Shown: one piece after another, positions 12,163 through 43,643 of the stretch
How positions within the stretch are numbered: position 1 is the stretch's first letter
How the letters are laid out: every line of letters begins with the position of its first letter
Source: Gammaproteobacteria bacterium
GTDB taxonomy: Bacteria; Pseudomonadota; Gammaproteobacteria; Chromatiales; Chromatiaceae
DNA length: 64,000 bases
Direction: 5' to 3'
Assembly (NCBI GenBank): GCA_020445415.1
Contig: JAGRGP010000045.1
Span: forward strand, 1-64,000
Program-made: the position numbers and the translations under genes
Notes under the pieces: model-generated
Told to the model about the DNA's origin: nothing
What the model saw: only the letters and a program-made list of their open reading frames with translations
The model's database searches: none

Positions 12163-13635
12163 TTAGTCTTCTTTGGTTCCCGGGGTTTCAGGATTCGGTT
12201 GCCCAGAGGGAGCGGTAAAGCTGTCATTCAGCCGTTGAACATAAGCATCGGCATCCTGAGTAACTTGGTGGAGGCGCTTGCGGGCACCCCGTCCCCATCC
12301 CGCAGGGTTCTTCATGAAGATGCTTCTCCAGGGTCGGGCGCTGCGAAGAAATGCCTTTGTGATATCCCCGCGTATTGCCAATTCCGCGGCATATTTTTTC
12401 AGATTTTTAGCAACCCACCCGGCAGTCACCGCACGTACCACGAAGTGCAGCGCCGCAATGACTACCAATAAAACAACCACGCCGGTGGCGGCAAGCCATG
12501 GACTGGATGCGAATAGCTCGGTAATTGACGAGAACCAACCCTCCCCGCTGGCCGTGCCGGTGTTAGCGCTGGAAAGGGTGGCGGCGACAATGATGGCACC
12601 CAGTACTAAGGCATCCCCCCAGATAACCCGCTTTTTCCAGCTTTGGATTGCCGAAGACAGGGCAGGGACCGCTTTGTCCTCGATATCGCGCGACGTCTTC
12701 TCCAGGGCACCGACAATCCGGTATGCACGCTCTACCTCGACCTGTTGCATGCGCTCATGGATCTCGGTGAGATCGGCATCCCGTTTTCGCTCGAATCTCT
12801 CCTTGAGGCTTTGATCTTCGATCGGCAAGTCAAAATCCGGATTATAGATGGTGTAAAAGCGGCCTGCCGTCAGTCCTCTGTCACCCATCGCCCGTTGCCA
12901 TGCCGCCACCACTTCCTCGGGGTTATCCTCCCGGGCCGTGGTGTCTATTTGGTTGAGTATGAATAGGAACTTACCGGTATCAGGCCGGTTGATCGTGCGG
13001 CTGACCAGGTGGTCAAGGGTATCCTGCATTGCTCCAGGCTCCGGGTGCCGGGCGTCGAAGAGCACGAGCACCAGATCGGAGAGGTCAATGATATGGTCGG
13101 TAATGCGTAGCGTGGAGGTGCGCTGGGCATCGGCATCAAAGCCCGGGGAGTCGATCAGAATCTTTCCCTTAAGCCTTTCACTTGGGCAGGTCTTTAACTG
13201 CAGATAAGCATCGATGCGTCGGCCTTCACCTTTGGCAACCAGTTCGATTTCATCGCTCATCTGGTAGAAAGGAAACCGGGGATCGGCATCCAACGCCACC
13301 CCGGGGAGGGTGTGTGCCTCTTTTTCGCCACTATAACAGATGACGCTAAAACGATCGTCAACCGCTTGGTTCCCGGTGCGCTGGAGTTTATAACCTAGAT
13401 AGTGGTTGATGAACGTTGATTTACCCGACGAGAAGGTCCCTAACACCGATATCAGGGGCCACCAAGGGATCTGCGTAGCGTAAGATTCGTCGGTCCCCAA
13501 CAACCCGATTTTCCGGGCAACGCGGTCCAGTGATCTAAAGCTTCTTACCGTGCTGAGGAGGATGGGGTTTTCCTGCTCCAGGTGAGTCTCCAAGTGTTGG
13601 AGTCGCGCTTCGATTGAGTTGCCTGCGGTAGTCAT
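12163..13635 (-). CDS. Dynamin-like GTPase with C-terminal membrane hairpin
   Basis: A 490-residue protein. The GTPase domain carries the P-loop GTFSSGKS at residues 66-73, the G3 motif DSPG in LIDSPGFDADAQRTS, and an N-Q-I-D in place of NKXD for base recognition (FILNQIDTT). Helical regions follow, and then two hydrophobic segments (near GDALVLGAIIVAATL and LAATGVVVLLVVIAALHFVV), which suggest membrane insertion. Bacterial dynamin-like proteins remodel or guard membranes. The role here is not known. The start ATG at 13635 is clear. It stands alone, with convergent and divergent neighbours. Confidence 0.8.
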   Translation of the reverse strand: MTTAGNSIEARLQHLETHLEQENPILLSTVRSFRSLDRVARKIGLLGTDESYATQIPWWPLISVLGTFSSGKSTFINHYLGYKLQRTGNQAVDDRFSVICYSGEKEAHTLPGVALDADPRFPFYQMSDEIELVAKGEGRRIDAYLQLKTCPSERLKGKILIDSPGFDADAQRTSTLRITDHIIDLSDLVLVLFDARHPEPGAMQDTLDHLVSRTINRPDTGKFLFILNQIDTTAREDNPEEVVAAWQRAMGDRGLTAGRFYTIYNPDFDLPIEDQSLKERFERKRDADLTEIHERMQQVEVERAYRIVGALEKTSRDIEDKAVPALSSAIQSWKKRVIWGDALVLGAIIVAATLSSANTGTASGEGWFSSITELFASSPWLAATGVVVLLVVIAALHFVVRAVTAGWVAKNLKKYAAELAIRGDITKAFLRSARPWRSIFMKNPAGWGRGARKRLHQVTQDADAYVQRLNDSFTAPSGQPNPETPGTKED

Positions 13636-14049: not shown

Positions 14050-14445
14050 ATGGCCGAACTTTTTTCTGACGAATGGATGAAGGGGTATTTGGAGCAGTGG
14101 AATGCCGATCCGGAACTCAGTAGTTCCCTCGGTCAGATTGGATTCAGCAGCGCGATTGGCTATGGGTTTGATGGAGAGGATAAGCCCCGTGGCGTGATTA
14201 CCGTGCAAAATGGTCAGGCAATAAGTGCAGGAACTTATAATGGGGAGTCCTTGAATTGGGATATCCGCTGCTCCCCGGCGCAGTGGGAAAAGTGGATTGG
14301 CAAACCTCCTGGAATGATGGGGTTGGGCTTGGCCTTCACCTCCGGAAAGATGAAGTTCAAGATTGGTGACTACGGCGCAATGCTGAAAGATCCCCGTATG
14401 GCGGGACCCTTTATCAAGACCTTCTCGGTAATGGGAAGGGTTTGA
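14050..14445 (+). CDS. SCP2-like (sterol carrier) domain protein
   Basis: A 131-residue soluble protein resembling a single SCP2 domain: FSDEWMKGYLEQWNADPEL at the start, then strands around GVITVQNGQAISAGT, a helix around CSPAQWEKWI and the closing GKMKFKIGDYGAML motif. SCP2 folds bind lipids or other hydrophobic ligands in a tunnel. I chose ATG at 14050, six bases after a perfect GGAGG; the TTG at 14044 would directly abut that site. A strong hairpin follows (14457-14507), so this first gene may be expressed at a higher level than the RND genes behind it. Its link to them is inferred from position and direction. Confidence 0.7.
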   Translation: MAELFSDEWMKGYLEQWNADPELSSSLGQIGFSSAIGYGFDGEDKPRGVITVQNGQAISAGTYNGESLNWDIRCSPAQWEKWIGKPPGMMGLGLAFTSGKMKFKIGDYGAMLKDPRMAGPFIKTFSVMGRV

Positions 14446-14456
14446 TTACCGGGATT

Positions 14457-14507
14457 CTGAGCTTCGCGCTACGGGTGAACTGTAACCTTTGCGCGAAGCT
14501 CAGTTTT
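14457..14507 (+). terminator. Strong terminator-like hairpin between SCP2 and RND adaptor genes
   Basis: CTGAGCTTCGCGC (14457-14469) pairs perfectly with GCGCGAAGCTCAG (14491-14503) over a 21-base loop and is followed by TTTT. It starts 12 bases after the SCP2 stop codon. It could end most transcripts there or act as an attenuator for the downstream RND genes. Confidence 0.65.
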
Positions 14508-14546
14508 ACGACTGGCTTCAAGAGAAAATCGGTAGGTTTATTCGTG

Positions 14547-15707
14547 ATGGGCACAAAAATCCAGGCAGTCGTAGTGGCAGCGGGCCTAGCTATTGCCTCA
14601 TCCCTTTTCGCCCAGGACTGGTCGCAGTCGGGGGGGGCTGACTTCTTTACCGTGCAGCAAGCAAGGGGAGCTCCGACGGTCTCCCTGGGCGGAACGGTAA
14701 TCCCCTACAAAGAGGTTACCTTGGCCGCTCAACTACCGGGTCGAGTTAAGTTCCTTGCGGGTATCGAAGGTGATGCCTTTCAAGAGGGTACCCTGCTGGT
14801 GGCATTGGACGATTCCGAATTGCTCGCAAAGCGTAATTCCGCGCTGGCGCAGTTGGCGAACGCCGATGCTCAATTTCGGGCGGCGGGCATAAAATTTGAC
14901 CGGGAACTCTGGTCTCCACAATCGGAACAAGCCCCTGGGGGTATGGGGGTACCCAATCTGTTTGATCAGATGTTTACCCAACCCATGGAGAGCTTCTCCG
15001 GGACCCGCCACCGGGGAGTTGAACGCCGAGCCGATTTATACAGTTCGGAGATTCAGATCAATCAAGCACGCAATTCCATCATGGCGGCTCGTTCCCAGAT
15101 CGAGGCGATAGACGCCAAGCTACGGGACGCTAAGAGCCTTGCTCCGTTTGATGGGGTTATCATGAGAAAGTTTGTAGAAGAGGGCGATACCATGCAGCCG
15201 GGACAGCCTCTGCTGGTGTTTGCCGATGTGGAATATCTGCAAATCCTGGTGGATGTTCCCGCTCGCTTACGACCAGGCCTGAACGAAGGGATGATGCTGC
15301 AGGCCCAGCTAGATGTAGGAAATCAGGTGGTACCGGTCAGGGTGGCCCAGATCTTTCCCATGGCTGATGCTCAGCGGCACACGGTAAAGGTGAAGTTCGA
15401 CCTACCACAGGGTGTATCGGCGCCGGGTATGTACGCTAAGGTTTTGGTGCCAGATTTTACTGCACCTGCTCGGAATTTTCCGGTTATCCCCTCCACGGCA
15501 ATACGTTATAACGGCAGTCTGCCGGGGGTGTATGTACTGGATGCCGAGGGAAAACCATCGTTGCGGCTGATCCGGGTAGGCGAACATTTGGACGGAGGAT
15601 TTACTAGCGTGCTTTCTGGATTGAGTGAGGGGGAGCGCGTGCTGAGAAACCCTGGGGGCGGAGTTTCATCCGCGTGGGCCTCACCTTCGGCGGGAGGCGT
15701 ACGCTGA
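14547..15707 (+). CDS. RND efflux periplasmic adaptor (membrane fusion protein)
   Basis: A 386-residue exported protein of the HlyD/AcrA type that would link an RND pump to an outer-membrane channel. It has a signal peptide (VVVAAGLAIASSLFAQ), a split lipoyl half-motif (TLAAQLPGRVKFLAGIEGD ... LAPFDGVIMRKFVEEGD), an alpha-hairpin region and a beta-barrel domain. The hairpin is interrupted by an unusual Gly/Pro/Met-rich stretch (about residues 125-165). No lipoprotein cysteine is present. The open frame reaches back to 14442, but that part overlaps the terminator hairpin, so I prefer ATG at 14547. The permease follows. No TolC-like protein is in the window. Confidence 0.83.
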   Translation: MGTKIQAVVVAAGLAIASSLFAQDWSQSGGADFFTVQQARGAPTVSLGGTVIPYKEVTLAAQLPGRVKFLAGIEGDAFQEGTLLVALDDSELLAKRNSALAQLANADAQFRAAGIKFDRELWSPQSEQAPGGMGVPNLFDQMFTQPMESFSGTRHRGVERRADLYSSEIQINQARNSIMAARSQIEAIDAKLRDAKSLAPFDGVIMRKFVEEGDTMQPGQPLLVFADVEYLQILVDVPARLRPGLNEGMMLQAQLDVGNQVVPVRVAQIFPMADAQRHTVKVKFDLPQGVSAPGMYAKVLVPDFTAPARNFPVIPSTAIRYNGSLPGVYVLDAEGKPSLRLIRVGEHLDGGFTSVLSGLSEGERVLRNPGGGVSSAWASPSAGGVR

Positions 15708-15826
15708 TTTCTTTGGCACCACGCCACGTTTAGGAGCTCTGCTCAAGCACTGGCGTGGCAAGTCTAAGTCTGTGGCTCTGATAGCGCTGACCTGCATTCG
15801 ATAATAACTATACAGTCAACAGTGAG

Positions 15827-18800
15827 ATGAACCAGGAAGATCCCAAATCAGCCGATTCGCAAAACACCTCCCAGCTCACCGATGAACAGTTAGGATTGGC
15901 TGGGCGCACTGCACGCTTCTTCATCAGTTCTCCCCTGTCTCCGTTGTTGTTCATTGCCATGATGCTAATGGGGCTTCTGGGTTTGGTGTTAACGCCCAGA
16001 CAGGAAGATCCCCAGATCTCTGTGCCGATGGTCGACATCTTCGTGCAGTACAGTGGCGCTTCAGCCGACCAGGTGGCGAATCTCGCGATTGAGCCTCTGG
16101 AGCGGATCATGAGCGAGATACCCGGGGTTAAGCACGTTTATTCGGCGACCCAACGCGGTATGGGGATGGTGACTATCGAGTTCGATGTCGGTGAACAGAT
16201 GGGTCCCTCGTTGGTCAAGGTAAATGACAAAATTGCCACGAACATGGATCTGATGCCGCCGGGTGTCTCACCGCCGTTGGTAAAATCGAAAGGCATCGAT
16301 GATGTGCCGGTGGTCAATATCACGCTGTGGGCCAAGGACCTGAATAAGGATGGTATAGCAGATGTAGACGATGGCCAGCTGCGAATGCTCGCCCAAGATG
16401 TGTTGCAAAGCGTCAAGGAAATACCCGATACCGGAAACGGATTTGTCGTGGGGGGCAGATCCGAGCAAATGACTATAGAGGTGTTTCCCGAGCGTCTCTC
16501 CGGTTATGGCATCAGCCTCGATCAGGTCGCGAATACCATACGCACGGCAAATAGCGAGCAGCAGGCGGGTGGGGTGGAATCCGGCAATACGCACTTCAAC
16601 GTCATCACCGGATCTTTTCTCAAGACGTTGGACGATATCAATCGGCTGATCGTAGGGACCCACAACGATGTCCCGGTCTATGTCCACGATGTCGCCCGTG
16701 TTACCCAAGGACCGGGCGATGCTACTCAGCTTGTCGCATTTTACACCGGTCCAGCGGGTGATCCGGATCTCCAGGCGGTCAGTGCGCCGGCGGTCACGAT
16801 TGCCGTGGCCAAGAAAGAAGGGGTGAACGGCGTTACGGTCGCCAATAATGTTATCAATCGTGTGAACGATTTGCGTGGTACGCGAATCCCCGACAATGTC
16901 GAGGTCAGCATTACCCGTGACTACGGTGAAACGGCCAACGACAAAGTCAACGAGCTGATCTTCAAGTTATTTGTCGCCACCGGTTTCGTATTCTTGCTGG
17001 TGCTGCTGGCATTTCGTGCCTTGCGTCCCGCCATCGTGGTGGTGTTGGTTATTCCGGTAGTGTTGTTGATGACCATCTTTTTTGCCTTTGTAACCGGATA
17101 CACGATCGACCGAGTGAGTTTATTCGCCCTCATATTTTCAATCGGCATCCTCGTCGACGACGCTATCGTGGTGGTGGAGAACATCTACCGCCGCTGGCTG
17201 GAAGAGGGGAAGACGGATGTGGATACCGCGGTAGATGCGGTTGCCGAGGTGGGTAACCCAACGATCCTTGCCACATTCACGGTTATCGCGGCACTGCTTC
17301 CGATGGGATTCGTGAGCGGGATGATGGGACCCTACATGGAGCCGATACCCGCTCTGGGTTCGGCGGCCATGCTGATCTCCTTGTTTGCGGCATTCGTTTT
17401 TACCCCGTGGCTCTCTATATCAAAGTGGCTCAGACCCACCATGGCGTATCTGGAAAAGGCGGAAAAGCGGGAGCATCGGGAAGCCGAGTGGCTGGAGGGA
17501 CTTTACCGGAACATTCTTACCCCGCTGATCGAGCACCCACGAAAGCGGTACCTGTTTCGCATCCTCCTCTGGGGCTGTTTCATGTTCGCGTGCTCGATGT
17601 TTTATACCAAGTGGGTGGCGGTGAAGATGTTGCCCCTGGACAATAAGCCGGAATTCTCGGTGGTGTTGGATATGCCCGAGGGCACGGCGCTTCCGGTGAC
17701 GGCGAATACCGCGCACCGTATTGCCCAAACCGTGCGCAAGATGCCGGAGGTAACGGCGGTTCAGGTATACGCAGGTACGGCCCGACCATTCGATTTCAAC
17801 GGTATGGTAAGGCACTATTACCTGCGGCAAGATCCTTGGCAAGGCGAGGTGCAGGTGCAGTTGTTGCATAAGACGCAACGCGACCGTAGCAGTCATGACA
17901 TAGCGGTGCAGGCCCGCAAGGATCTTACCGAGTTGCTGAAAGGATCCGGTGCCCGGTTTTCAGTGGTTGAAATGCCACCGGGTCCGCCTGTATTACAGTC
18001 GGTTGTTGCAGAGGTCCATGGCCCCAACACGGATGTGCGGCATCAGTTCACGCGCGACCTGACCGAGATCTTTGAGCAGGCGGAAAGTCTTCGCGATGTA
18101 GATAACTACATGCGAGATTCGTATCTTTATTGGCGTTTTGTCGTCGATACGGAAAAGGCGGTACGCCGGGGTATCTCAGTCGATGCGGTCAATCGAAACC
18201 TTGCCATGGCCCTGGGTGGCATGGTGTTGGGTGACGTCAAGCAGCGGGCCGGCCATGAACCGGTCCATATCATTATCCAGGTACCGCTAGCGGAACGCTC
18301 TCAGATTAACCGGTTAGGTGATCTCCCGATTCAGTCCGATACCGGGGCGATTGTTCCGTTGCGAGAGCTTGGGCGATTCGAACAGGTTCCCGAAGAACCG
18401 ATTATTTACCACAAGGATTTGCGGTCCGTTGAGTATGTCGTCGCGGATGTGGGGGGAGAACTGGCGGCACCGGTTTACGGAATGTTTCAGGTTCAGGACT
18501 TGTTGGCGGAATACAAAGCACCCGATGGCGTGGAGGTTGATGCTTTCTGGTTTGGTCCTCCCTCAAACGACCTGGTTTCCAGTATCGAATGGACCGGAGA
18601 GTGGACGGTTACCTTTGAAACGTTTCGGGATATGGGTGGCGCCTTCATGGTGGCCTTGGTACTGATTTATATGCTGGTGGTATGGGAGTTCGGCAATTTC
18701 AAGATCCCCGCGTTGATCATGGCGCCCATTCCGTTGACATTGTTGGGCATCATTCCGATGCATGCGATCATGGATGCGGAATTTACCGCGACCTCCATGA

Positions 18801-19984
18801 TCGGTTGGATAGCACTGGCCGGCATCATCGTACGCAACTCCATCCTGTTAGTAGACTTCTCCGTGCACGAAGTGCAACGGGGGATACCCGTTGCCGAAGC
18901 GGTGATTAGGGCCTGCAAGACCAGAACTAGACCAATCATGATTACGGCACTGGCACTGGTTTGTGGCTCCAGCGTGATCTTTACCGATCCGATCTTTCAG
19001 GGCATGGCCATTTCACTGGCGTCCGGTGTAATGGTATCGACCATTCTGACCCTGATCGTTATTCCCTTGGGCTGCATCAAGTCGAGTAAGGCGCTATTGG
19101 AGGTTGCCGCAATTGGTGTGGGGGGGGCAGGGGCTGCAAGTATTCCGGAGTCCCCAGCTCATACAGAAGCCGTGAAGACCCCTCCTGTTCCCAAGACACC
19201 TCTGTTGCTGACCATTTGGGGTTGGGTAGCCAATGCGCTGTTGATGCTGTTTTACCTGGTGAGAGGCATCTTCCTGTTGCTGGGGCAATTGTTCAAACGA
19301 AAACCGGCTGCGCAACCACCTCCTCCGACTCCCGGAGGGGGAACTGTACCACCGGTATCCTCCCCCGCTACGACCGGGGGTGTAGGACCTGTTGCGGGGC
19401 CGGGCGGAAACGAGACGACCGCAGCGGCGTCTGCAACTGCTGAAACTCAGGGGCAGGTGACGGTTTCTGACGTGGAGTCTCCGGCCACCCCAGTGGTTGA
19501 GCAGGACGTCGAAAAAGTTATCACGACCAGAACCACCGATAGCGCCTCGGTTGTGGATCCGGCAGATACCAATGGGCCTGATAAGCCCACAATAGCGGCT
19601 AACCAGACACCCACTCCGGTGCCTTCCGTAGCGGAGCCGCCGATACCAAGCGCCCCAGTAACTAAGGCACAAGACAAAGCGCCAGAGACGGCGTCCATAA
19701 AAGCCAAAGCTAAAGCCGAAGGCACGGCGTCGGCGACAACCCGGAAGAAGTCTCTTGGCCCCAGAAAGGCACCTGTCCGAAAAAGGTCTGCCAAGAAGGT
19801 AGTCAAGAAGGTTTCGGGGAGAAAGGTGTCCGCCAGTAAGCAAGACGAAGTGAGGACTAGGGTATCTCCTGAGCCCACTAGCGTGACCCCTGTGGATTCA
19901 GGTTCGAGTGGTACCAATACGGCCAAGAGAAATGGGCGCCGTGGTATCAGGCTGAGAATCAGTGACAGTGACGGTATTGAATAA
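15827..19984 (+). CDS. RND efflux permease with extra membrane segment and long basic C-terminal tail
   Basis: A 1385-residue inner-membrane pump, about 300 residues longer than usual. Residues 1 to about 1085 are a complete RND permease with 12 membrane helices and two large periplasmic loops. The TM4 proton-relay pair is D444-D445 (GILVDDAIVVVENI). The TM10 lysine of AcrB is replaced by R1003 (IVRNSILLVDF), a variant of some subfamilies. After TM12 comes a further hydrophobic segment (about 1126-1157, TIWGWVANALLMLFYLVRG), then a disordered Pro/Thr/Val/Ala-rich region and a Lys/Arg-rich block (about 1291-1345, KKSLGPRKAPVRKRSAKKVV) like histone H1 tails. The substrate is unknown. It lies 119 bases after the adaptor gene and is followed within 57 bases by an exported protein gene. 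Confidence 0.88.
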   Translation: MNQEDPKSADSQNTSQLTDEQLGLAGRTARFFISSPLSPLLFIAMMLMGLLGLVLTPRQEDPQISVPMVDIFVQYSGASADQVANLAIEPLERIMSEIPGVKHVYSATQRGMGMVTIEFDVGEQMGPSLVKVNDKIATNMDLMPPGVSPPLVKSKGIDDVPVVNITLWAKDLNKDGIADVDDGQLRMLAQDVLQSVKEIPDTGNGFVVGGRSEQMTIEVFPERLSGYGISLDQVANTIRTANSEQQAGGVESGNTHFNVITGSFLKTLDDINRLIVGTHNDVPVYVHDVARVTQGPGDATQLVAFYTGPAGDPDLQAVSAPAVTIAVAKKEGVNGVTVANNVINRVNDLRGTRIPDNVEVSITRDYGETANDKVNELIFKLFVATGFVFLLVLLAFRALRPAIVVVLVIPVVLLMTIFFAFVTGYTIDRVSLFALIFSIGILVDDAIVVVENIYRRWLEEGKTDVDTAVDAVAEVGNPTILATFTVIAALLPMGFVSGMMGPYMEPIPALGSAAMLISLFAAFVFTPWLSISKWLRPTMAYLEKAEKREHREAEWLEGLYRNILTPLIEHPRKRYLFRILLWGCFMFACSMFYTKWVAVKMLPLDNKPEFSVVLDMPEGTALPVTANTAHRIAQTVRKMPEVTAVQVYAGTARPFDFNGMVRHYYLRQDPWQGEVQVQLLHKTQRDRSSHDIAVQARKDLTELLKGSGARFSVVEMPPGPPVLQSVVAEVHGPNTDVRHQFTRDLTEIFEQAESLRDVDNYMRDSYLYWRFVVDTEKAVRRGISVDAVNRNLAMALGGMVLGDVKQRAGHEPVHIIIQVPLAERSQINRLGDLPIQSDTGAIVPLRELGRFEQVPEEPIIYHKDLRSVEYVVADVGGELAAPVYGMFQVQDLLAEYKAPDGVEVDAFWFGPPSNDLVSSIEWTGEWTVTFETFRDMGGAFMVALVLIYMLVVWEFGNFKIPALIMAPIPLTLLGIIPMHAIMDAEFTATSMIGWIALAGIIVRNSILLVDFSVHEVQRGIPVAEAVIRACKTRTRPIMITALALVCGSSVIFTDPIFQGMAISLASGVMVSTILTLIVIPLGCIKSSKALLEVAAIGVGGAGAASIPESPAHTEAVKTPPVPKTPLLLTIWGWVANALLMLFYLVRGIFLLLGQLFKRKPAAQPPPPTPGGGTVPPVSSPATTGGVGPVAGPGGNETTAAASATAETQGQVTVSDVESPATPVVEQDVEKVITTRTTDSASVVDPADTNGPDKPTIAANQTPTPVPSVAEPPIPSAPVTKAQDKAPETASIKAKAKAEGTASATTRKKSLGPRKAPVRKRSAKKVVKKVSGRKVSASKQDEVRTRVSPEPTSVTPVDSGSSGTNTAKRNGRRGIRLRISDSDGIE

Positions 19985-20041
19985 TTGTCGGGAAATACCG
20001 TTTTGGCTGGAACCAGATCGATTCCCGAGACAGGCGGTTTG

Positions 20042-20641
20042 ATGCGGCGCTTAAAATTATCGAGAGCAATAATTGTTACCCTCCTTGGATTGACCGCTGT
20101 TGTTTATCGATGTTTCGGATGGGATCCAAACACTGGTTCCGGGTATCCGGGATATTCCACACCTGATTCGGGAGGCTACGGCTACGGGTACCCGCGGGGG
20201 GCGGCTGGATTAACGCCCGGGCGCTTCAGGATGAGCGGTGGCTCGGTTCCTGATTCCGCGTTTTCAGCGTTGGAAGACAAGGGACACTTCGGATCCCCAT
20301 ATGATCATCATCCCCAGCAAGGCCAGTTTTCTCAAGGATACCGTTTTCGAGAAATCTCTAAGCATCCATCCGCTGGGGATGAATTTCCAAAGTTTCGCCC
20401 GGAGACCATGAAAGGCCGCTCCCCATATAGCTGGGGGGCTGGCGAGGGGGCAATGTCACCCGCACCGGTGTTTCGCGAAACAGGCGAATATCCGAAGCGA
20501 GAAGGCGGATTCAGCAATGGAGCGAACCTAGGTAAGCCATCCGGTACGACTCCCAAGCGGTCCTCCTACGGGACAGGCAATTGGGGCGAGCAGGGCGTAT
20601 ACGGTTATCTACCGGCACCGATTTTTCGGCCGTTGCCCTAA
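20042..20641 (+). CDS. Exported Gly/Pro/Tyr-rich protein of unknown function
   Basis: I do not recognise this 199-residue protein. After an N-terminal hydrophobic segment (AIIVTLLGLTAVVY) it is low-complexity, rich in Gly, Pro, Ser, Tyr and Phe. An early GYPGYSTPDSGGYGYGYPRG stretch recalls Gly/Tyr-rich bacterial surface or granule proteins. Short aromatic-Arg motifs recur: GRFRMSGG, GYRFREIS, FPKFRPET, APVFRETG and the C-terminal APIFRPLP. The last resembles the RFRP motifs of the next protein. I chose ATG at 20042, where the hydrophobic segment starts, instead of the first in-frame start at 19985. It follows the RND permease closely and probably shares its transcript. Confidence 0.6.
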   Translation: MRRLKLSRAIIVTLLGLTAVVYRCFGWDPNTGSGYPGYSTPDSGGYGYGYPRGAAGLTPGRFRMSGGSVPDSAFSALEDKGHFGSPYDHHPQQGQFSQGYRFREISKHPSAGDEFPKFRPETMKGRSPYSWGAGEGAMSPAPVFRETGEYPKREGGFSNGANLGKPSGTTPKRSSYGTGNWGEQGVYGYLPAPIFRPLP

Positions 20642-20692
20642 ACAATGCCTCTCCCAGGGGACGTCATCGTAAACAAACAGGATGGGCACAAT

Positions 20693-21973
20693 ATGTACTC
20701 AGCGATCAGCCGCCTCGCCGTTACGTTGATCCTTCTTATAACGGCGAGTGTGGGGTGGGGTAGCGTAATAACCGAATCACCTTTCCAAAGATCTGGTTAC
20801 TGGATGCCGCGGTTACCCGCCGCAGCGGTTCAGCAGAGTACCGCCGGTAGTTCGCAGGCCCGCTTTCGTTTCAGACCTATCCCACCGCGGTTGGCGTGGT
20901 CCCGGTTTTCTCACCGGCCCATGTTTTTTCCCCGTTTTGGCTATGGGCTTGGGGGTTATCGAATGGGTCAATTTGGCCAGCCCCAGGGGGGCTGGGGGGG
21001 CCGTTTGCCGGTGATGCGATACCCTGTTCCCACCCCACCATTCGTTGCGATGGTGCCGATGCACTATCGCCCTCCTACTTGGGTTAAGGTGAATGCCATG
21101 CCGGAGTCGTATCGGAAAGGGATGGTTACTTATTACCCTCCGGCGCAACCTGCCGCTACCCGGGGCCATTATTTTCCACACCGCTCTGTTGCGGGTTACT
21201 TGCCACATTTTTTCCAACGGGGTGATCGGAGATGGCGTTTTCGACCCCTTGGGCTCGAGCGGTGGCCATCCCAAACAGCCGGTGTGTTGGTGCCTAATGG
21301 CGCTGGATACCACGCGCGCCAATATCCAGTCGGGAGAACCCGGCCAGCGGCTCAATTGTTCCGGTCAGACCGTGAAGGCACCGACCTGTCGCAGGCTGGA
21401 TTTCGATACCGCGGGCGGCCGAGCGGGGGTGATCCACGTTTAAGCGGAGCGGCGTTCAGCGCTGTTTTGAACCCAGCCTTAACAGATTTGAACTCCCGTC
21501 CCATGAAGCGCCACTCCTCCGGTGCCGGACAACTACTAAGGGGCCAAGTGTCCGCTTTGTCGAGTCCAACGCCTGTCCCGAGGATCAACGGCAAGCCTGG
21601 ATTTAGAAAATGGCGCGCCAGTCAATGGGACGATGTATTAGCGTCGCGGCGGGACGTGTCGCGCTATCGGGTCCACAGTTTTTTTCCAAACTCCCGTCGC
21701 AACGGATACGGGTTTCCGATGGGTCAATACTTTTCCTTGAGACCGCCATGGGTCCAATTATCATGGAAAAAACTTGACGCGCTATCCTCTCGGTCGCTAC
21801 AGAAGCCGGGCGAGAGTCGGCGCGGGTGCACCACCTTTGGATCCATGGGTGGGGACCTGATTGGAGAGGATGGGAAGGCCGCGTTGTTTCTCGGCCAGGG
21901 GCTATATATCTTGGCTGGGATAGATTTTCGACGGGGTCATTATATTTCGGAGCAAGATCAGCCGGTAGGGTGA
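20693..21973 (+). CDS. Exported Arg/Pro/Gly/aromatic-rich protein of unknown function
   Basis: I do not recognise this 426-residue protein. It has a good signal peptide (VTLILLITASVGWGS), then a strongly basic, aromatic-rich body of low complexity with many Arg-Phe, Arg-Tyr and Trp pairs. Motifs RFRFRPIP, RWRFRPLG and GFRYRGRPSGGD echo those of the preceding gene. The last resembles its PSAGD segment, so the two may be diverged relatives. The C-terminal 60 residues are more ordinary (GDLIGEDGKAALFLGQGLYI). Start is ATG at 20693, ahead of the signal peptide. The ParA-like gene begins four bases after the stop, which argues for translational coupling. Confidence 0.62.
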   Translation: MYSAISRLAVTLILLITASVGWGSVITESPFQRSGYWMPRLPAAAVQQSTAGSSQARFRFRPIPPRLAWSRFSHRPMFFPRFGYGLGGYRMGQFGQPQGGWGGRLPVMRYPVPTPPFVAMVPMHYRPPTWVKVNAMPESYRKGMVTYYPPAQPAATRGHYFPHRSVAGYLPHFFQRGDRRWRFRPLGLERWPSQTAGVLVPNGAGYHARQYPVGRTRPAAQLFRSDREGTDLSQAGFRYRGRPSGGDPRLSGAAFSAVLNPALTDLNSRPMKRHSSGAGQLLRGQVSALSSPTPVPRINGKPGFRKWRASQWDDVLASRRDVSRYRVHSFFPNSRRNGYGFPMGQYFSLRPPWVQLSWKKLDALSSRSLQKPGESRRGCTTFGSMGGDLIGEDGKAALFLGQGLYILAGIDFRRGHYISEQDQPVG

Positions 21974-21977
21974 TGAC

Positions 21978-22610
21978 ATGATTACGGTGATTGGCAGTTT
22001 GAAGGGGGGGTCAGGGAAAAGCACGGTCACATTCAATTTGGCAGTGTGGCTGACTATGGCGGAAAAAGATCTGAGGGTTATCGATCTTGATCCCCAGGCA
22101 ACGTTGCGGGATGTCGCTGAGGTGAGGCAGGAGGAGGGGTATCGACCTTTCATCTCGGTCAAGGGCAAGAAGTTTCTCGACAAGGCGAAACTGGAGGGAG
22201 CCGACGAAGTACTGATCGATGTTGGAACCGCCGATCTTGAAATGATGAAACAGGCAATCGGCATCGCCCATCGGATCATTGTTCCCGTGCCTCCGTCCCA
22301 GGCTGATATTTGGTCTACCCAGCGTTTTATCCAGTTTGTCAGCTCGTTGGAGACGGAAAACCGAGTCGAGATACTGGGGTTCATCAACCGGGGCGATACC
22401 CACCATGCGGTGCGGGAGACTGACGAAGCTGCCGCCGCGCTAGTGTCCCTTCAAGGTATCCGGTTCTTAAAGCCGCGCCTCTCCCAGCGTACCATCTTTA
22501 GGCGGTCATTCAGCGAAGGCTTGGCGGTATTTGAACTCAGCGCGAAGTCAAAGGGCACAGTCGAGTTTAACGCACTTTGCGCCAAGCTCTATCCAGAACT
22601 GGTAGGCTGA
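21978..22610 (+). CDS. ParA/MinD-family ATPase
   Basis: A 210-residue ATPase with the deviant Walker A KGGSGKST at residues 9-16, Walker A' region VIDLDPQATLRD and Walker B VLIDVGTA. ParA-like proteins position plasmids, chromosomes or protein clusters by ATP-driven cycling on DNA or membrane. This one lacks an N-terminal DNA-binding domain, and no ParB lies next to it, so an orphan role in placing a protein complex is likelier than DNA segregation. It starts four bases after the gene for an exported Arg/Pro-rich protein and is followed by a DUF302 gene after 38 bases. Its cargo may be the RND complex or the Met-rich coiled-coil protein, which is inference. Confidence 0.85.
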   Translation: MITVIGSLKGGSGKSTVTFNLAVWLTMAEKDLRVIDLDPQATLRDVAEVRQEEGYRPFISVKGKKFLDKAKLEGADEVLIDVGTADLEMMKQAIGIAHRIIVPVPPSQADIWSTQRFIQFVSSLETENRVEILGFINRGDTHHAVRETDEAAAALVSLQGIRFLKPRLSQRTIFRRSFSEGLAVFELSAKSKGTVEFNALCAKLYPELVG

Positions 22611-22648
22611 GAATAACAACACATGGATTATTTGAGAGGACTTAGGTA

Positions 22649-23227
22649 ATGGCTCTAGTTAGAAACTTATTGGCGTTGGTGGGTTTGCTCTGTCTTGTTG
22701 CTGTAGGGATGTTTCTAGGCGCTAACAGGGAGGTATTATCCCAGTTTGATCCCGGGGCGGGTAAGGCTTATTGGGAGATGGCCAGTCAGGTGATCGATAC
22801 GGGGAGTGGGGCTGATGCCACTGTTTGGAAGCGGCAGGTGCAGGAAGGATTGTCCCCGGAAGAGGTCGAAGAGACCATGAAGTTTGTCGCCAACGAGCAT
22901 AACATTGCCAATGTCGGTGAACTCCCGCTTTACAAGGATGTCGAGGCCAAGACAGGTGTTCCGTACCGGTTTGTAAAGATCTACATGTTTTGCAATTCAC
23001 TGACGGCGCAACAGATGCTGGACTACAATGATGCCTTTTCCGCCTATCTTCCTTGCCGTATAACCATGGTCGAGGACAAAGAGGGGCGCTTGTGGCTTTA
23101 TACCCTCAACATGGACCTGATGATCTATGGTGGCAAACCGCTGCCTACGGAGCTCAAGGAGGAGGCAATCAAGGTGAAGGAAATAATCCTGGACATCATG
23201 GAGCGCGGTGCAGCAGGCGATTTCTGA
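22649..23227 (+). CDS. DUF302-like protein with N-terminal membrane anchor
   Basis: A 192-residue protein. An N-terminal hydrophobic segment (about 5-25) would anchor it to the membrane. The C-terminal half matches the DUF302 pattern: YRFVKIYMFCNSLTAQQMLDY is followed by FSAYLPCRITMVEDKEGRLW, with a conserved-looking Cys before the strand, then LYTLNMDLMIYGG. DUF302 domains bind unknown ligands and occur in sulfur-metabolising and denitrifying bacteria. It is in the same direction as the ParA-like gene and probably the last gene of that transcript, since a hairpin follows at 23241-23276. Confidence 0.65.
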   Translation: MALVRNLLALVGLLCLVAVGMFLGANREVLSQFDPGAGKAYWEMASQVIDTGSGADATVWKRQVQEGLSPEEVEETMKFVANEHNIANVGELPLYKDVEAKTGVPYRFVKIYMFCNSLTAQQMLDYNDAFSAYLPCRITMVEDKEGRLWLYTLNMDLMIYGGKPLPTELKEEAIKVKEIILDIMERGAAGDF

Positions 23228-23240
23228 TCTTTATTCAGAA

Positions 23241-23276
23241 GGGGTCGCGACGGCAGGTTTATACTGCCTGCTCCCC
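23241..23276 (+). terminator. Possible terminator after DUF302 gene
   Basis: GGGG (23241-23244) and CCCC (23273-23276) enclose an inner perfect GGCAG/CTGCC stem (23252-23256 with 23264-23268). The following sequence GATTGTTCTACGTTTTAT is moderately T-rich. Confidence 0.4.
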
Positions 23277-23430
23277 GATTGTTCTACGTTTTATCTGCGG
23301 GGTTACGCAATGTCCGCCACCCCACTTTTGGGTTTATTACTTCAAAATCGTTAATTGAGAGAGCCGAAGTTATCCAGATAATTAAATAAAAAACAATTAG
23401 ATATATGACTATTGTAGAATTATTATTGAG

Positions 23431-23458
23431 TTGTTGAGATCATGAACTATGGTATGCT
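23431..23458 (+). promoter_or_regulatory. Putative sigma-70 promoter
   Basis: TTGTTG (23431-23436) and TATGCT (23453-23458) with a 16-base spacer lie in strongly AT-rich DNA 43 bases ahead of the coiled-coil protein gene. This suggests the gene has its own promoter. Confidence 0.4.
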
Positions 23459-23500
23459 TGGTTTCAATTCACCAGGATAAAGACTTTAGGTTATCCAATT

Positions 23501-24019
23501 ATGATCGATAAAACTCCTATGGATCATCAGGGTGCCTCGGCAGATCAACAGAAAGAGACGATGGATAATTCCTTCGAACGTCTTTCAGAGGCCTTTGAGA
23601 CCAGCGCAAGGCGTTGGGAATTGATCGTCTACCCGTCCTTGTTCGGTTTCATATTACTGGCTGGATACGGGTTCTTTCTGATTTACAGTCTGACCCGGGA
23701 CATTCACTATCTCGCGATAAGCGTGGATACCAATATGACGGTGATGGCCAGCAATTTCCAATCAGTTGCGGACAATATGAGCCACATGACCGCCACTGTG
23801 CGAACCATGGCAACCGATATGGATGAGATGAACAGCAAGATCGGTACATTGGAACCTATGCTGACCACCATTGATTCGATGGACCAATCCATGGACTCCA
23901 TGGATCGAGCCATCAAGGCAATGACCTATTCCACTTATAATATGCAGAATGACATGTCCAGCATTAACCATAATGTTTCGCGGCCCATGTCCTTTATCAA
24001 CACCTTTATGCCGTGGTGA
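23501..24019 (+). CDS. Membrane protein with Met-rich periplasmic coiled coil
   Basis: I do not recognise this 172-residue protein. An acidic N-terminal cytoplasmic part (1-40) is followed by one membrane segment (YPSLFGFILLAGYGFFLIYSL, about 44-64) and a long helical region (70-172). Met, Asp and Ser recur there every three or four residues (TMATDMDEMNSKI, SMDQSMDSMDRAI), typical of a coiled coil. The methionine richness on one face could bind copper or simply pack the coil. It ends in PMSFINTFMPW. It lies downstream of the RND/ParA/DUF302 run in the same direction, but with its own likely promoter. Confidence 0.65.
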   Translation: MIDKTPMDHQGASADQQKETMDNSFERLSEAFETSARRWELIVYPSLFGFILLAGYGFFLIYSLTRDIHYLAISVDTNMTVMASNFQSVADNMSHMTATVRTMATDMDEMNSKIGTLEPMLTTIDSMDQSMDSMDRAIKAMTYSTYNMQNDMSSINHNVSRPMSFINTFMPW

Positions 24020-39387: not shown

Positions 39388-41223
39388 TCAGTATCCTAAA
39401 TCGGCATCGATGAACGGGTGCTCAGGGGGGGTGCCGAGTATGCCGCGCAAGATGTCGTTCATGGTCGCCGTGTCGTTATCAAATCCACCGTGGCTGGTGG
39501 CGTGGCTGCGGCCTTTGATACCGGCTCCAGGCCCCTGGCTGTACACGAATTCAAGCCGCTCTCCGGCGAGTGCTTTCAAGCCCTTGTTGTAGATTTCCAT
39601 GCCGAGAATGGCCTCGGGCACCTGCTCCTCAAAGGCGTTGGATACCAGATACAACAGCGACTTCCGGTAAATCTTCGCTACATTGTCATCTTTTTCCAGC
39701 CGACCGTTCAAATTGTAGATCGTCATCTTGTCGATAGCGAACCCCCGGTCAGTTTGCAGCAGCGGTAGATAGTGGCTCTTGAAGAGGTCTATGGAAGCCG
39801 CGGGAGCCATCAGGCTGCAACTTCTCACCCTTAAGTCAGGTGCAAGCGATTTCAATGCCGCCGTTAAATAAGCGAGGAGAATGGCTCCGGTACTGTGGCC
39901 AACCAGATGAATATTGAGTAGGCGTCCGCGCCGCTTGAATGCCTTGACGAAAGACTCGATAACCGAGATCCCCGCTCTGCCGTCACTGAAAGGACACCGA
40001 GCTCCGCTCTTCATTTCCCGCCATAACGCGCGGCCGGGTATTCGAGTACTCTGTTCAAGAATCTTGTCTGTCCAGTCTGTGAGTCCCCCGGCTCGCTGCT
40101 CGGCCTCTTCTTCTCTGCCGAGGACCACATCCTTAAGCTCTTCGAGTAGCCCGGTATCGTACATAATATGATAGGGATAGATGCGATTGAGCTTGAAGGT
40201 ATCCCGCATGGCGCTGATGCGGGTGGCGGAATCCCGGGGAGAATTGAGGCCGCCATGAGCGTAGAGTAACAAGTGGTCATATTTGTCGCTCTTGGCGATC
40301 AACCTGGCAGTTTGGCGGGTATCGTAGGCGGTACTCCAGTAGCGGCCCCGCTGATGGAACTCACCGTCATCGATATGCACGAAATGGCCGGCAATTTCCG
40401 CGCGGGTGGGGGAGCGCCCAGACTGCTTTCTGCCGTCGTGTATTACGGAATATTGATTCGGGGCGTTATGCCAGATCTGCGGTGTTGGCAACGCCAATTG
40501 AAACACCCAGGCATCGCGAATATTTTGTTGCCAGTCTTCATAGGTCCATAGAGCCACTCCATCATCGCCCCACTGTTCTCCCCAAGAGTTTTGCACCAGA
40601 AAACCTTTGTCGTTGTATCCCACAATGGCAAAGGCGTGTCCCCCGATGGCTGTCGGTTGCATCAGGATCTTGCCGTTCTTGACACGGTGTTTGTCCCAGC
40701 CTTCGTGGACCATGGCCGACACGTAGATAGCGCCAACCTCGTTGAGTGCGGTATGAAAGTCAGAGATGCGGTTTGGTAAACGGAAGTAGGCTCCCAAGGT
40801 GTTCTCCCGCGCCCTCTTGGCACGCAGGATGGTCAATTCTCCGGGATTCGGAAGATACCGCCAGTGCTCATCACGGCATACGCCCATTGCGTACCAGCCC
40901 TTGATTGCGCCCCGGCAACTGGATCCGGCATACCTCTCTCCAGGCCACTCGTCATGACGCTTTGCCATTTCATAGAGCATGCGTGAACTGACGGTGTACC
41001 CACGACCACGCCGCTGATTGAGCATGTTGATGACCGCCGCTAGGCCAAATCCCGTGCAAGCCCCTTCGCTGCCCTGATCGAGAATCGTAAGATCCTTGGG
41101 GCGATCGAGGCTTGGTTGTAATTGGATGAGCGCTGGTTGGTAGATGAAATCCCGAAAGTCTGGAACATCTGGTGTGGCATTCAGTGGATAATCCCCCAAA
41201 CATGTAATCTCCGAGTCGCTCAT
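39388..41223 (-). CDS. Papain-like cysteine protease fused to a GxSxG serine hydrolase
   Basis: A 611-residue protein of two parts. Residues 1 to about 245 are a C1-family (papain) peptidase: catalytic Cys56 in DQGSEGACTGFG, His196 in IGGHAFAIVGYN and Asn212 in VQNSWGEQWGDDG. Residues about 300-611 look like an alpha/beta hydrolase: HLLLYAHGGLNS near the oxyanion region and nucleophile Ser444 in LVGHSTGAILLAYL. A late SHATSHGG could supply the histidine. There is no signal peptide or prodomain of normal length. The open frame extends upstream to 41484 through a repeat element; ATG at 41223 with GGGGGAAA ahead is the natural start. Function is unknown. Confidence 0.8.
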   Translation of the reverse strand: MSDSEITCLGDYPLNATPDVPDFRDFIYQPALIQLQPSLDRPKDLTILDQGSEGACTGFGLAAVINMLNQRRGRGYTVSSRMLYEMAKRHDEWPGERYAGSSCRGAIKGWYAMGVCRDEHWRYLPNPGELTILRAKRARENTLGAYFRLPNRISDFHTALNEVGAIYVSAMVHEGWDKHRVKNGKILMQPTAIGGHAFAIVGYNDKGFLVQNSWGEQWGDDGVALWTYEDWQQNIRDAWVFQLALPTPQIWHNAPNQYSVIHDGRKQSGRSPTRAEIAGHFVHIDDGEFHQRGRYWSTAYDTRQTARLIAKSDKYDHLLLYAHGGLNSPRDSATRISAMRDTFKLNRIYPYHIMYDTGLLEELKDVVLGREEEAEQRAGGLTDWTDKILEQSTRIPGRALWREMKSGARCPFSDGRAGISVIESFVKAFKRRGRLLNIHLVGHSTGAILLAYLTAALKSLAPDLRVRSCSLMAPAASIDLFKSHYLPLLQTDRGFAIDKMTIYNLNGRLEKDDNVAKIYRKSLLYLVSNAFEEQVPEAILGMEIYNKGLKALAGERLEFVYSQGPGAGIKGRSHATSHGGFDNDTATMNDILRGILGTPPEHPFIDADLGY

Positions 41224-41774
41224 GAAGTTTCCCCCACTCCCGTGAATATTTAAAAGAATATACTTCCTGATTCGAGTATAGTCTGTTGAATTAAAAGGGT
41301 ATAACATCAGCTTTCTTCGGAAGTTTTTAGAATCTATCTCAAAATTACCGAACGACTTCGAGACCCGGCAAAACCGGCCGAAAACGCGCAGTTTACACGG
41401 AGTAAATGAGCAGTTGATGCAGGTCTCAACGCCGTATCGGTGGCGTGCGGCAATTTTGAGATAGGTTCTAGTACATACGCACAATACTCACTGGGCAGAA
41501 GGTAAATAGCCGTATCACGATTAAGTTATTTCAGTGCAATCAACGCTGATTTCCGCTGACGAAGCTGCTGCCGACTACTAAACGAGGTGCAGGCTTTGAA
41601 AGGATATCAGTGGCACCGAAACACTCAGGATGGGGTAAGATGTCGCGGGTCGCCAGTTTACGTGGGCCGCTGTGGGGCATGAATCCAGCGAATCGGGTGC
41701 TCGGGTACTGTTACTAGCGCGCCGAAATCACTCGTCGACCGGCATCGATAGATACCAAATATATTTAATTATCA
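41224..41774. other. Intergenic region with MITE-like element
   Basis: This 551-base gap is more AT-rich than its surroundings. It contains the inverted-repeat element at 41328-41470. The remaining parts (41224-41327 and 41471-41774) show no gene, RNA or further repeat that I can support. Short open frames here are spurious. Confidence 0.5.
41328..41470. repeat. 143-bp MITE-like element with 23-bp terminal inverted repeats
   Basis: The ends are inverted repeats of 23 bases that match at 21 positions: the left end begins TAGAATCTATCTCAAAATT and the right end finishes AATTTTGAGATAGGTTCTA. The 97-base interior encodes no protein. This is the structure of a non-autonomous transposable element or a solo pair of IS ends. 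A clear target-site duplication was not found. Only one copy is in the window. Confidence 0.65.
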
Positions 41775-42113: not shown

Positions 42114-42182
42114 CTATATATATTATAAAAGATAATTAAAAAGAAACATGCTGTACATGTTAGGTTAGGCTTGATTGGACCG

Positions 42183-43643
42183 ATGAAAAGAGAGGGTAGC
42201 AAGACACCCGTGAAACTGATGATGAAGGCTTATTGGAATCACCTGTTCGGTTGGGTGTTGATCCTGGTGCTGTTGATGCAAAGTGGGTCAGCGCTATCTG
42301 CGGATGGATTGCGAGTGATGGTGAGCATCAAGCCCATCCATTCCTTGGTATCGGCTCTCATGCAGGGGGGAGACCCACCCGAACTGGTTGTCGCGGAAGG
42401 AGAGCTGCCTTTTGGGTATCAGCTATCGGAGGCACAGCGAAGCAACCTTTCAAAAGCGGATCTGCTGATCTGGACCGGGCCCGAATTGGAACCCTTCCTC
42501 GTCGGTCCCGCGGCGGAGTTGGAGGATTCTGACAAAAGTTTGGAACTGCTTGATCATCCGGCCCTGAAGATACTTCCAAGCCGCTGGAACAACGACCGCC
42601 GTGATCCGTTTTTCTGGATGGATACCCGTAATGCGTTGATCTTGATTGATGAACTGGCGCGGGTGTTGATTGACCTCGATCCGGTGAGGACACACCTTTA
42701 TCTACGGAATCGGGCGGAATTGCAGAGTCAGATTGCTGAATTGGATCGCCGTTTCGAATACGGCTATCGCGGGCTCACAGGAAGTGCCCTCATCTATCAC
42801 GATAGCCTGCAGTATTTCGAACAGGCTTATGCCTTGCGTTTTCAGGAAGTCCTTTCCCCCCCTGATGTCCGGCCGATGAGCGCGGAGACGCTTCTGTCCG
42901 CCCGCAGCCACATCACCGGAGGGGAAGTCCGTTGCATTCTTGTTGAACGAGGGATACCCGCTCCCCAACTTGCGCTGTTAACGGCGGGGTTGGAGACCGC
43001 TGTCGGAGAACTCGATAGTTTGGGTAGCGGCTTGAAGGCTGGGGCGGCGCTTTATCCCCAACTCATGGAACATACCGCTCAAGTCATCAAAGATTGTGTC
43101 GGACAGGGTATTGAGAAGCAGCCGATACTCCCCCCGGAGGAGGAGAGGCCGGTGGTCTCATCCTACGGGATCGGTGGCAGCTTTTTGCTTTCCGACCATT
43201 TGGGCGGAGTAGTCAGTGAGGCGAAATTTCTGGGCCGATATAATCTGCTTTATTTCGGGTACACTTTTTGCCCTGACGTTTGTCCGACTTCGCTTCAGGT
43301 GATGTCAGCGGCGCTAGAATTGCTTGGCAGCGAGTCGGAGAAGATACAACCTTGGTTTATTACTGTCGATCCTGAGAGAGATAGTGTATCTAAAATAAAT
43401 AGATATGTTCGCTATTTCAATAAAAATTTAATTGGATTAACCGGTAGTCCCGAGATGATATCGCGTATCGCGGCCCGCTATCGGGTCAGGTATGAGAAGG
43501 TGCAAGGAGAGGATCCGGCGATGTATCTGATGGACCATACCGCCAGCCTGTTCCTAATCGGTCCGGATGGGCGCTTCATTACCAAGTTCGCCCATGGTAT
43601 CACCCCCCGGGCACTTGCCGAGCGGCTCAAAAGCTATCTATAA
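42183..43643 (+). CDS. ZnuA-like solute-binding protein fused to a SCO copper chaperone
   Basis: A 486-residue exported or membrane-anchored fusion. After a hydrophobic segment (about 20-40), residues 44-310 resemble metal-binding receptors of ABC transporters (ZnuA/MntC type): MVSIKPIHSLVSALMQGG, then LIWTGPELEPFL and IYHDSLQYFEQAYAL. Two of the usual metal ligands are lost: F77 and F143 stand where PHDY and DPHFW have His. H206 and D278 remain. Residues 325-486 are a SCO1/SenC thioredoxin-like domain with C363 and C367 (TFCPDVCPTS) and H452 (MDHTASLFLIG), the full copper-binding set. SCO proteins load copper into cytochrome oxidase CuA. ATG at 42183 is preferred over TTG at 42171. No ABC permease or oxidase genes are near. 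Confidence 0.85.
   Translation: MKREGSKTPVKLMMKAYWNHLFGWVLILVLLMQSGSALSADGLRVMVSIKPIHSLVSALMQGGDPPELVVAEGELPFGYQLSEAQRSNLSKADLLIWTGPELEPFLVGPAAELEDSDKSLELLDHPALKILPSRWNNDRRDPFFWMDTRNALILIDELARVLIDLDPVRTHLYLRNRAELQSQIAELDRRFEYGYRGLTGSALIYHDSLQYFEQAYALRFQEVLSPPDVRPMSAETLLSARSHITGGEVRCILVERGIPAPQLALLTAGLETAVGELDSLGSGLKAGAALYPQLMEHTAQVIKDCVGQGIEKQPILPPEEERPVVSSYGIGGSFLLSDHLGGVVSEAKFLGRYNLLYFGYTFCPDVCPTSLQVMSAALELLGSESEKIQPWFITVDPERDSVSKINRYVRYFNKNLIGLTGSPEMISRIAARYRVRYEKVQGEDPAMYLMDHTASLFLIGPDGRFITKFAHGITPRALAERLKSYL

Follow-up and report, generated by a model that had tools for sequence, protein, structure and literature searches.

A conserved RND pump and ParA gene neighbourhood linked to sulfur globule proteins, and a candidate route to globule positioning

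Eight genes lying on one strand in a Chromatiaceae genome, within the 64,000-nucleotide stretch of DNA analysed here (the window), form part of a neighbourhood that is conserved as a unit in two classes of bacteria. The occurrence of this unit tracks that of the sulfur globule proteins (Pfam SGP), genes for which sit inside the locus in many relatives, and a short motif at the end of the RND permease follows the presence of a ParA-type ATPase. A sulfur-globule context for the locus is strongly supported by these patterns. The reading that we prefer, and regard as probable, is that the locus encodes a sulfur-globule biogenesis system with a ParF-type ATPase that docks on the cytoplasmic tail of the pump and places or partitions the extracytoplasmic globules.

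The gene cluster and its conservation

The features of the cluster are as follows.

12163..13635, -: dynamin-like GTPase (PF00350 2.3e-13), a divergent neighbour conserved in the locus
14050..14445, +: SCP2-fold protein of lipid-binding type (AlphaFold model pLDDT 94; top Foldseek matches are sterol carrier protein 2)
14547..15707, +: RND periplasmic adaptor (TIGR01730 148 bits, cut-off 94.9)
15827..19984, +: RND permease with C-terminal extension, 1385 aa (PF00873 493 bits; AcrB-type fold)
19073..19981, +: permease tail, a hydrophobic helix (residues ~1126-1156) and then a low-complexity Lys/Ala/Pro stretch
19937..19957, +: terminal RRGIRLR (consensus RRGIRLK), proposed ParA-docking peptide (56/56 ParA-positive against 0/9 contiguous ParA-negative clusters)
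20042..20641, +: exported FRF/FRP-motif protein 1, exp1 (N-terminus resembling a signal peptide; motifs more frequent than in composition shuffles)
20693..21973, +: exported FRF/FRP-motif protein 2, exp2 (same evidence as exp1)
21978..22610, +: ParA-type ATPase, ParF-like, 210 aa, no ParB (CbiA 8.2e-14; NF041546 123 bits)
22649..23227, +: membrane-anchored DUF302 protein (PF03625 4.8e-12)
23501..24019, +: Met-rich coiled-coil membrane protein with FMPW end (RWELIVYP-TM block and C-terminus conserved in 118 sequences)

An earlier, sequence-only reading of this DNA had described eight genes in one direction between 14050 and 24019, and all eight open reading frames were indeed found there, on one strand. 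The adaptor is likelier to start near 14547 than at 14442, where its reading frame opens, and the likely starts of exp1 and exp2 lie near 20042 and 20693 (frames opening at 19985 and 20645). The dynamin-like gene at 12163-13635, on the opposite strand, belongs to the same conserved neighbourhood as the eight. Promoter and terminator scans gave no sites above shuffles, and neither Rfam nor a tRNA scan found anything in the window.

Most of the labels that the sequence-only reading had given to the products stood up. The adaptor scores above the cut-off for RND_mfp and the permease reaches 493 bits against ACR_tran, has an AcrB-like fold and finds its closest PDB sequence in 6vej, which together uphold the pairing of an RND adaptor with a permease; a complete ACR_tran permease with a periplasmic adaptor places the pair among HAE-type tripartite pumps. 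The SCP2-fold protein has no Pfam sequence match; its model, built with 32 relatives (pLDDT 94), matches 2cx7 (TM 0.75) and 1wfr in Foldseek, so that the SCP2 label is right at the level of the fold, as predicted. The DUF302 assignment agrees with PF03625 (4.8e-12), the protein being conserved across 54 sequences, and the coiled-coil membrane protein is Met-rich as described (19 Met in 172 residues). Both of the proteins proposed to be exported, exp1 and exp2, have N-termini that look like signal peptides when read by eye; they match no family, the SGP model PF17228 included, and their repeated YRFR/FRP-type motifs exceed composition shuffles. Exported FRF/FRP proteins were considered as a general feature of the locus and rejected as such, being confined to the Chromatiaceae/Sedimenticola branch.

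The ATPase has ParF of TP228 as its best solved relative by sequence, followed by McdA, and its deviant Walker A motif with the signature lysine (KGGxGKST) is conserved in 147 ParA orthologs. No ParB-like gene adjoins parA, the neighbours matching other families, which sets the locus apart from ParABS and agrees with the description of a ParA-like ATPase lacking ParB.

A single scan with the ParA protein yielded 80 loci from Sedimenticola, Thiodiazotropha, Thiosymbion, Chromatiaceae and other Gammaproteobacteria, and most of them, judged where the contig was long enough, have the order dynamin, SCP2, adaptor, RND permease, exported ORFs, ParA, (DUF302) and coiled-coil protein; the purple bacteria among the 80 have no recognisable SCP2 or DUF302 genes. 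Among 369 evenly sampled genomes of Gammaproteobacteria, ParA was found in 65 genomes from 32 families. The loci of distant families hold the same gene set, the dynamin-like gene there usually following the coiled-coil gene on the same strand. A phylum-wide sample added 39 further genomes from another class, probably Magnetococcia, and the 12 loci read from it mostly have the same gene order. Sulfur globules occur in many magnetotactic cocci (PMC6783814). With its order recurring across loci, distant families and a second class, the neighbourhood is conserved far beyond chance. The search that the sequence-only reading had proposed, for conserved neighbourhoods with ParA beside a long-tailed RND permease, thus found them in two classes, and the scattering of the genes in relatives that would have spoken against its idea was not seen in most of the 80 loci.

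Many relatives also carry a LolA/DUF4412-like gene (a DUF4412/MucB-like carrier) upstream of parA; no LolA-like protein was found in the genome of the window. One locus (L137, 4203-4998 from the pump end) holds an extra ORF whose product has a membrane helix at its N-terminus and a long, low-complexity region of Pro, Ala and acidic residues. Similar ORFs, absent from the window, are found in L172, L114 and L121, placed after parA or the LolA-like gene and before the coiled-coil gene.

Sulfur globule proteins and the nature of the substrate

In distant families, SGP genes (PF17228) sit between the pump and parA, in the slot that exp2 occupies in the window. Pfam accepts SGP genes in the orthologous loci L114 (3.7e-15), L137 (4.1e-8), L129 (7.4e-10) and L174 (2.3e-10), and in L217 (1.3e-17) and L221 (8.7e-11) of the second class. 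SGP was found in 56 of the 369 genomes, 54 of them among the 75 that bear the cluster and two among the other 294; these are raw genome counts, made without correction for phylogeny, and kinship is covered in part by the count of families, in which all 27 SGP-bearing families also bear the cluster. The SGP model is rich in composition, and it matched none of 14 control genomes. An SGP gene lies in or beside the cluster in 19 genomes, often 350-780 bases from parA. Some observations weigh against the globule reading. Among cluster-bearing genomes, 21 of 75 have no SGP match, some of these having been missed by the search (in G164, for example, Pfam accepts the gene of L129). In the genome of the window itself, the SGP genes are on contigs other than that of the cluster; in Allochromatium vinosum, too, the locus numbers of sgpA, sgpB and sgpC are far apart (PMC10386293). 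The globules of that organism are extracytoplasmic and coated by exported envelope proteins (PMC10386293).

The cluster might instead be an envelope-lipid transport locus, built of SCP2 protein, LolA-like carrier and RND pump, that serves sulfur oxidisers generally and has globule proteins merely co-regulated with it. The SCP2 fold and the DUF4412/MucB-like carrier of many relatives fit this, as does the distribution of dsrA, which is present in 54 of the 65 ParA-positive genomes (64 of the 304 others) and the presence of soxB in 8 of the remaining 11. However, even within dsrA-positive genomes the cluster tracks SGP, which is found in 48 of 63 genomes with the cluster and 2 of 55 without it, so that sulfur oxidation alone does not account for the link, which is to globule proteins, and the SGP genes are located inside the locus. 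We regard this alternative as improbable.

More improbable still is a metal or drug efflux operon accompanied by unrelated passenger genes. The permease and adaptor are members of the multidrug/metal RND superfamily, but the permease scores far under the multidrug and metal subfamily cut-offs, the synteny with non-efflux genes is strict and the distribution follows that of the sulfur globule proteins. The model for heavy-metal RND permeases (CusA/CzcA, TIGR00914) gives 241 bits where its cut-off is 701; metal efflux was rejected on these subfamily scores, and the metal substrate that had been offered for the pump is not supported.

SgpD was considered as one of the locus genes and set aside, since it is described as a separate transcription unit with different features, largely restricted to Chromatiaceae (PMC10386293). 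In Allochromatium humboldtianum, an SGP-like gene (L050:19778-20227) lies ~10 kb downstream of parA on the opposite strand.

The permease tail and its association with ParA

The permeases of the cluster extend ~130-400 residues beyond the last RND helix, in a variable, low-complexity tail with a near-invariant end, RRGI(R/Q/K)LK, usually no more than 16 residues from the C-terminus and reading RRGIRLR in the window. Non-cluster permease paralogs lack the end motif and mostly the tail as well, and the long tail pointed out in the sequence-only reading is thereby confirmed as a conserved trait of the cluster permeases. The motif is present in all 56 cluster permeases with a complete end from ParA-positive genomes, whether ParA is linked or unlinked; this count includes one RKGIRLK and leaves out L117 for its frameshift. 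ParA is distant or on another contig, with the motif present, in G048, G065, G100, G117, G209, G216, G264, G316 and G362. None of nine contiguous ParA-negative clusters has the motif (L141, L155, L166, L167, L170, L171, L172, L174 and L178; the genome of L155, G210, is 72% complete), and all nine retain the coiled-coil gene and mostly also adaptor, carrier or dynamin genes.

Several apparent exceptions to this rule dissolved: in G019 and G121 the contig edge is reached before parA, in L117 the tail is frameshifted and the motif sits in another frame, and L129 has the RKGIRLK form that the regular expression had missed. A renewed search of the ParA-positive genomes that lacked a full cluster pump found no cluster-type pump core in five (G075, G149, G218, G219 and G265), the motif being located on the parA contig in G219, and in G186 and G215 the cluster pump is present, split over pieces. 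On a tree of 80 permeases, ParA and the motif change six times each, with about five independent pairs agreeing and none disagreeing. A phylogenetic sign test on these roughly five informative pairs gives p 0.0625, a pattern that is strong in direction and small in number. From this sequence pattern, the permease tail is likely to be the partner of ParA.

The side of the membrane on which the tail lies bears directly on such a partnership. A model of 1165 residues of the permease has the AcrB-like fold plus one extra helix (1126-1156), which, if it crosses the membrane, would put the tail and motif in the periplasm. However, 18 of 117 motif-bearing tails (e.g. L104) have no strongly hydrophobic 19-mer, which together with the Lys-rich nature of the tails favours a cytoplasmic location, and since ParA is cytoplasmic its co-occurrence with the motif points the same way. 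On these sequence features, we favour a cytoplasmic tail.

The link between motif and ParA by itself shows a connection of ParA to the pump only, and the locus could thus be a globule locus in which ParA acts on the pump, by spreading or polarising its complex or by controlling its activity through the ATPase cycle, and places no globule. Three clusters (L166, L172 and L174) keep the pump, SGP and other genes without ParA, which makes ParA an add-on. Against this, ParA adjoins an SGP gene in G065 and G265, where the pump is unlinked or was not found, and we consider such a purely pump-directed role unlikely, if the least so of the alternatives. The existence of ParA-negative clusters means that pump and globule genes may work without ParA, and under our preferred reading too ParA and the tail look like a detachable spatial module.

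Other permeases show further variety. The genome of the window has a tail-less paralog, 60% identical, elsewhere (G000:C87:15824-19003, L163). The permeases of L154, L159, L160, L177 and L184 reach the contig edge in long repeats of the AAAEK, ESRA or EP type, which may represent a further kind of tail. Three small dsrA-positive genomes (G142, G258 and G357; L175, L196 and L180) have a related permease and adaptor without the cluster, the terminal Lys-rich stretch of these permeases being short and different.

A candidate mechanism and its relation to known systems

In the mechanism that we propose, the SCP2-fold protein, the adaptor, the RND pump and, in relatives, the LolA/DUF4412-like carrier would move a hydrophobic substrate outward from the inner membrane. 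That the substrate is hydrophobic is suggested by the SCP2 fold and the LolA-like carrier, and it may be sulfane-sulfur or a lipid used in the boundary of the globule. Coating or nucleating the globule would fall to the exported proteins, which are SGP in relatives and the FRF/FRP proteins here, and the coiled-coil and dynamin-like proteins may shape the membrane site. The globule being extracytoplasmic, ParA is unable to touch it and a membrane-spanning adaptor is needed, which the pump can provide. Nucleoid-bound ParA-ATP would then dock on the cytoplasmic C-terminal peptide of the pump, which would act as a trans-membrane adaptor in the role of ParB or McdB. Pump and globule sites would in this way be distributed over the length of the cell, and each daughter would receive a share of them. 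We infer this docking and positioning from the patterns described above, and the full claim, that nucleoid ParA grips the RND C-terminal peptide to distribute and partition sulfur globules across the envelope in both classes, seems to us about evenly poised between true and false. The earlier suggestion that a pump, exported proteins binding a deposit and a placing ParA work together fits the evidence well in all but its metal substrate, the deposit very probably being the sulfur globule and the tail the likely ParA partner.

The docking element of ParA/MinD partners is commonly a short, basic peptide close to one terminus, in which key hydrophobic residues matter too (PMC12204374). RRGIRLK resembles these peptides in being basic and hydrophobic and in a flexible tail, but is C-terminal where the known ones are N-terminal (PMC12204374). 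As in McdA-McdB carboxysome positioning and other ParA/MinD systems (PMC10241942, PMC12204374), the ATPase is encoded with genes for its putative cargo, and a disordered region of the proposed partner ends in a short basic peptide; here, in contrast, there is no ParB or McdB gene, the proposed partner is an RND C-terminus and the cargo would lie outside the cytoplasm. ParF of the type Ib partition system of plasmid TP228, the closest solved relative, is likewise a small ParA (~210 residues), whereas the conserved setting of the present ParA is a pump locus of sulfur oxidisers, and no ParG-like gene was found adjoining it. Among HAE-type RND pumps (TriC-like 6vej, AcrB and MdtB), the full permease domain and adaptor are shared, but the cluster permease has low identity to them and forms a distinct subfamily, with its long tail and conserved end. 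Like SgpA, SgpB and SgpC (Pfam SGP) and SgpD of A. vinosum (PMC10386293), the cluster encodes exported low-complexity proteins, and the loci of relatives hold SGP genes, although exp1 and exp2 of the window match no SGP model. SgpD is itself reported to adjoin a hydrophobic/amphiphilic exporter (PMC10386293).

Searches of a collection of open-access papers found no description of the locus. The cargos that two of these papers name for ParA/MinD ATPases comprise chromosomes, the divisome, carboxysomes, flagella, chemotaxis arrays and others, with no RND pumps or sulfur globules among them (PMC10241942, PMC12204374). The list of ParA proteins of H. neapolitanus was considered as a source of a match and discarded, there being no pump or globule among its named cargos. 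According to a 2023 paper, sulfur globules seem to be positioned at random in many species, and in some they are polar (PMC10386293). For globule building, placement and inheritance, the locus supplies a conserved candidate gene set and a specific seven-residue motif, and could serve as a genomic marker of globule-forming bacteria; if the proposed mechanism is true, RND pumps and extracytoplasmic organelles would be added to the cargos of ParA ATPases.

Elsewhere in the window, one ORF (42171-43643) joins a ZnuA-type metal-binding domain to a SCO1/SenC domain in an unusual fusion, and the 698-residue product of another (39388-41484) has a papain-family peptidase domain.
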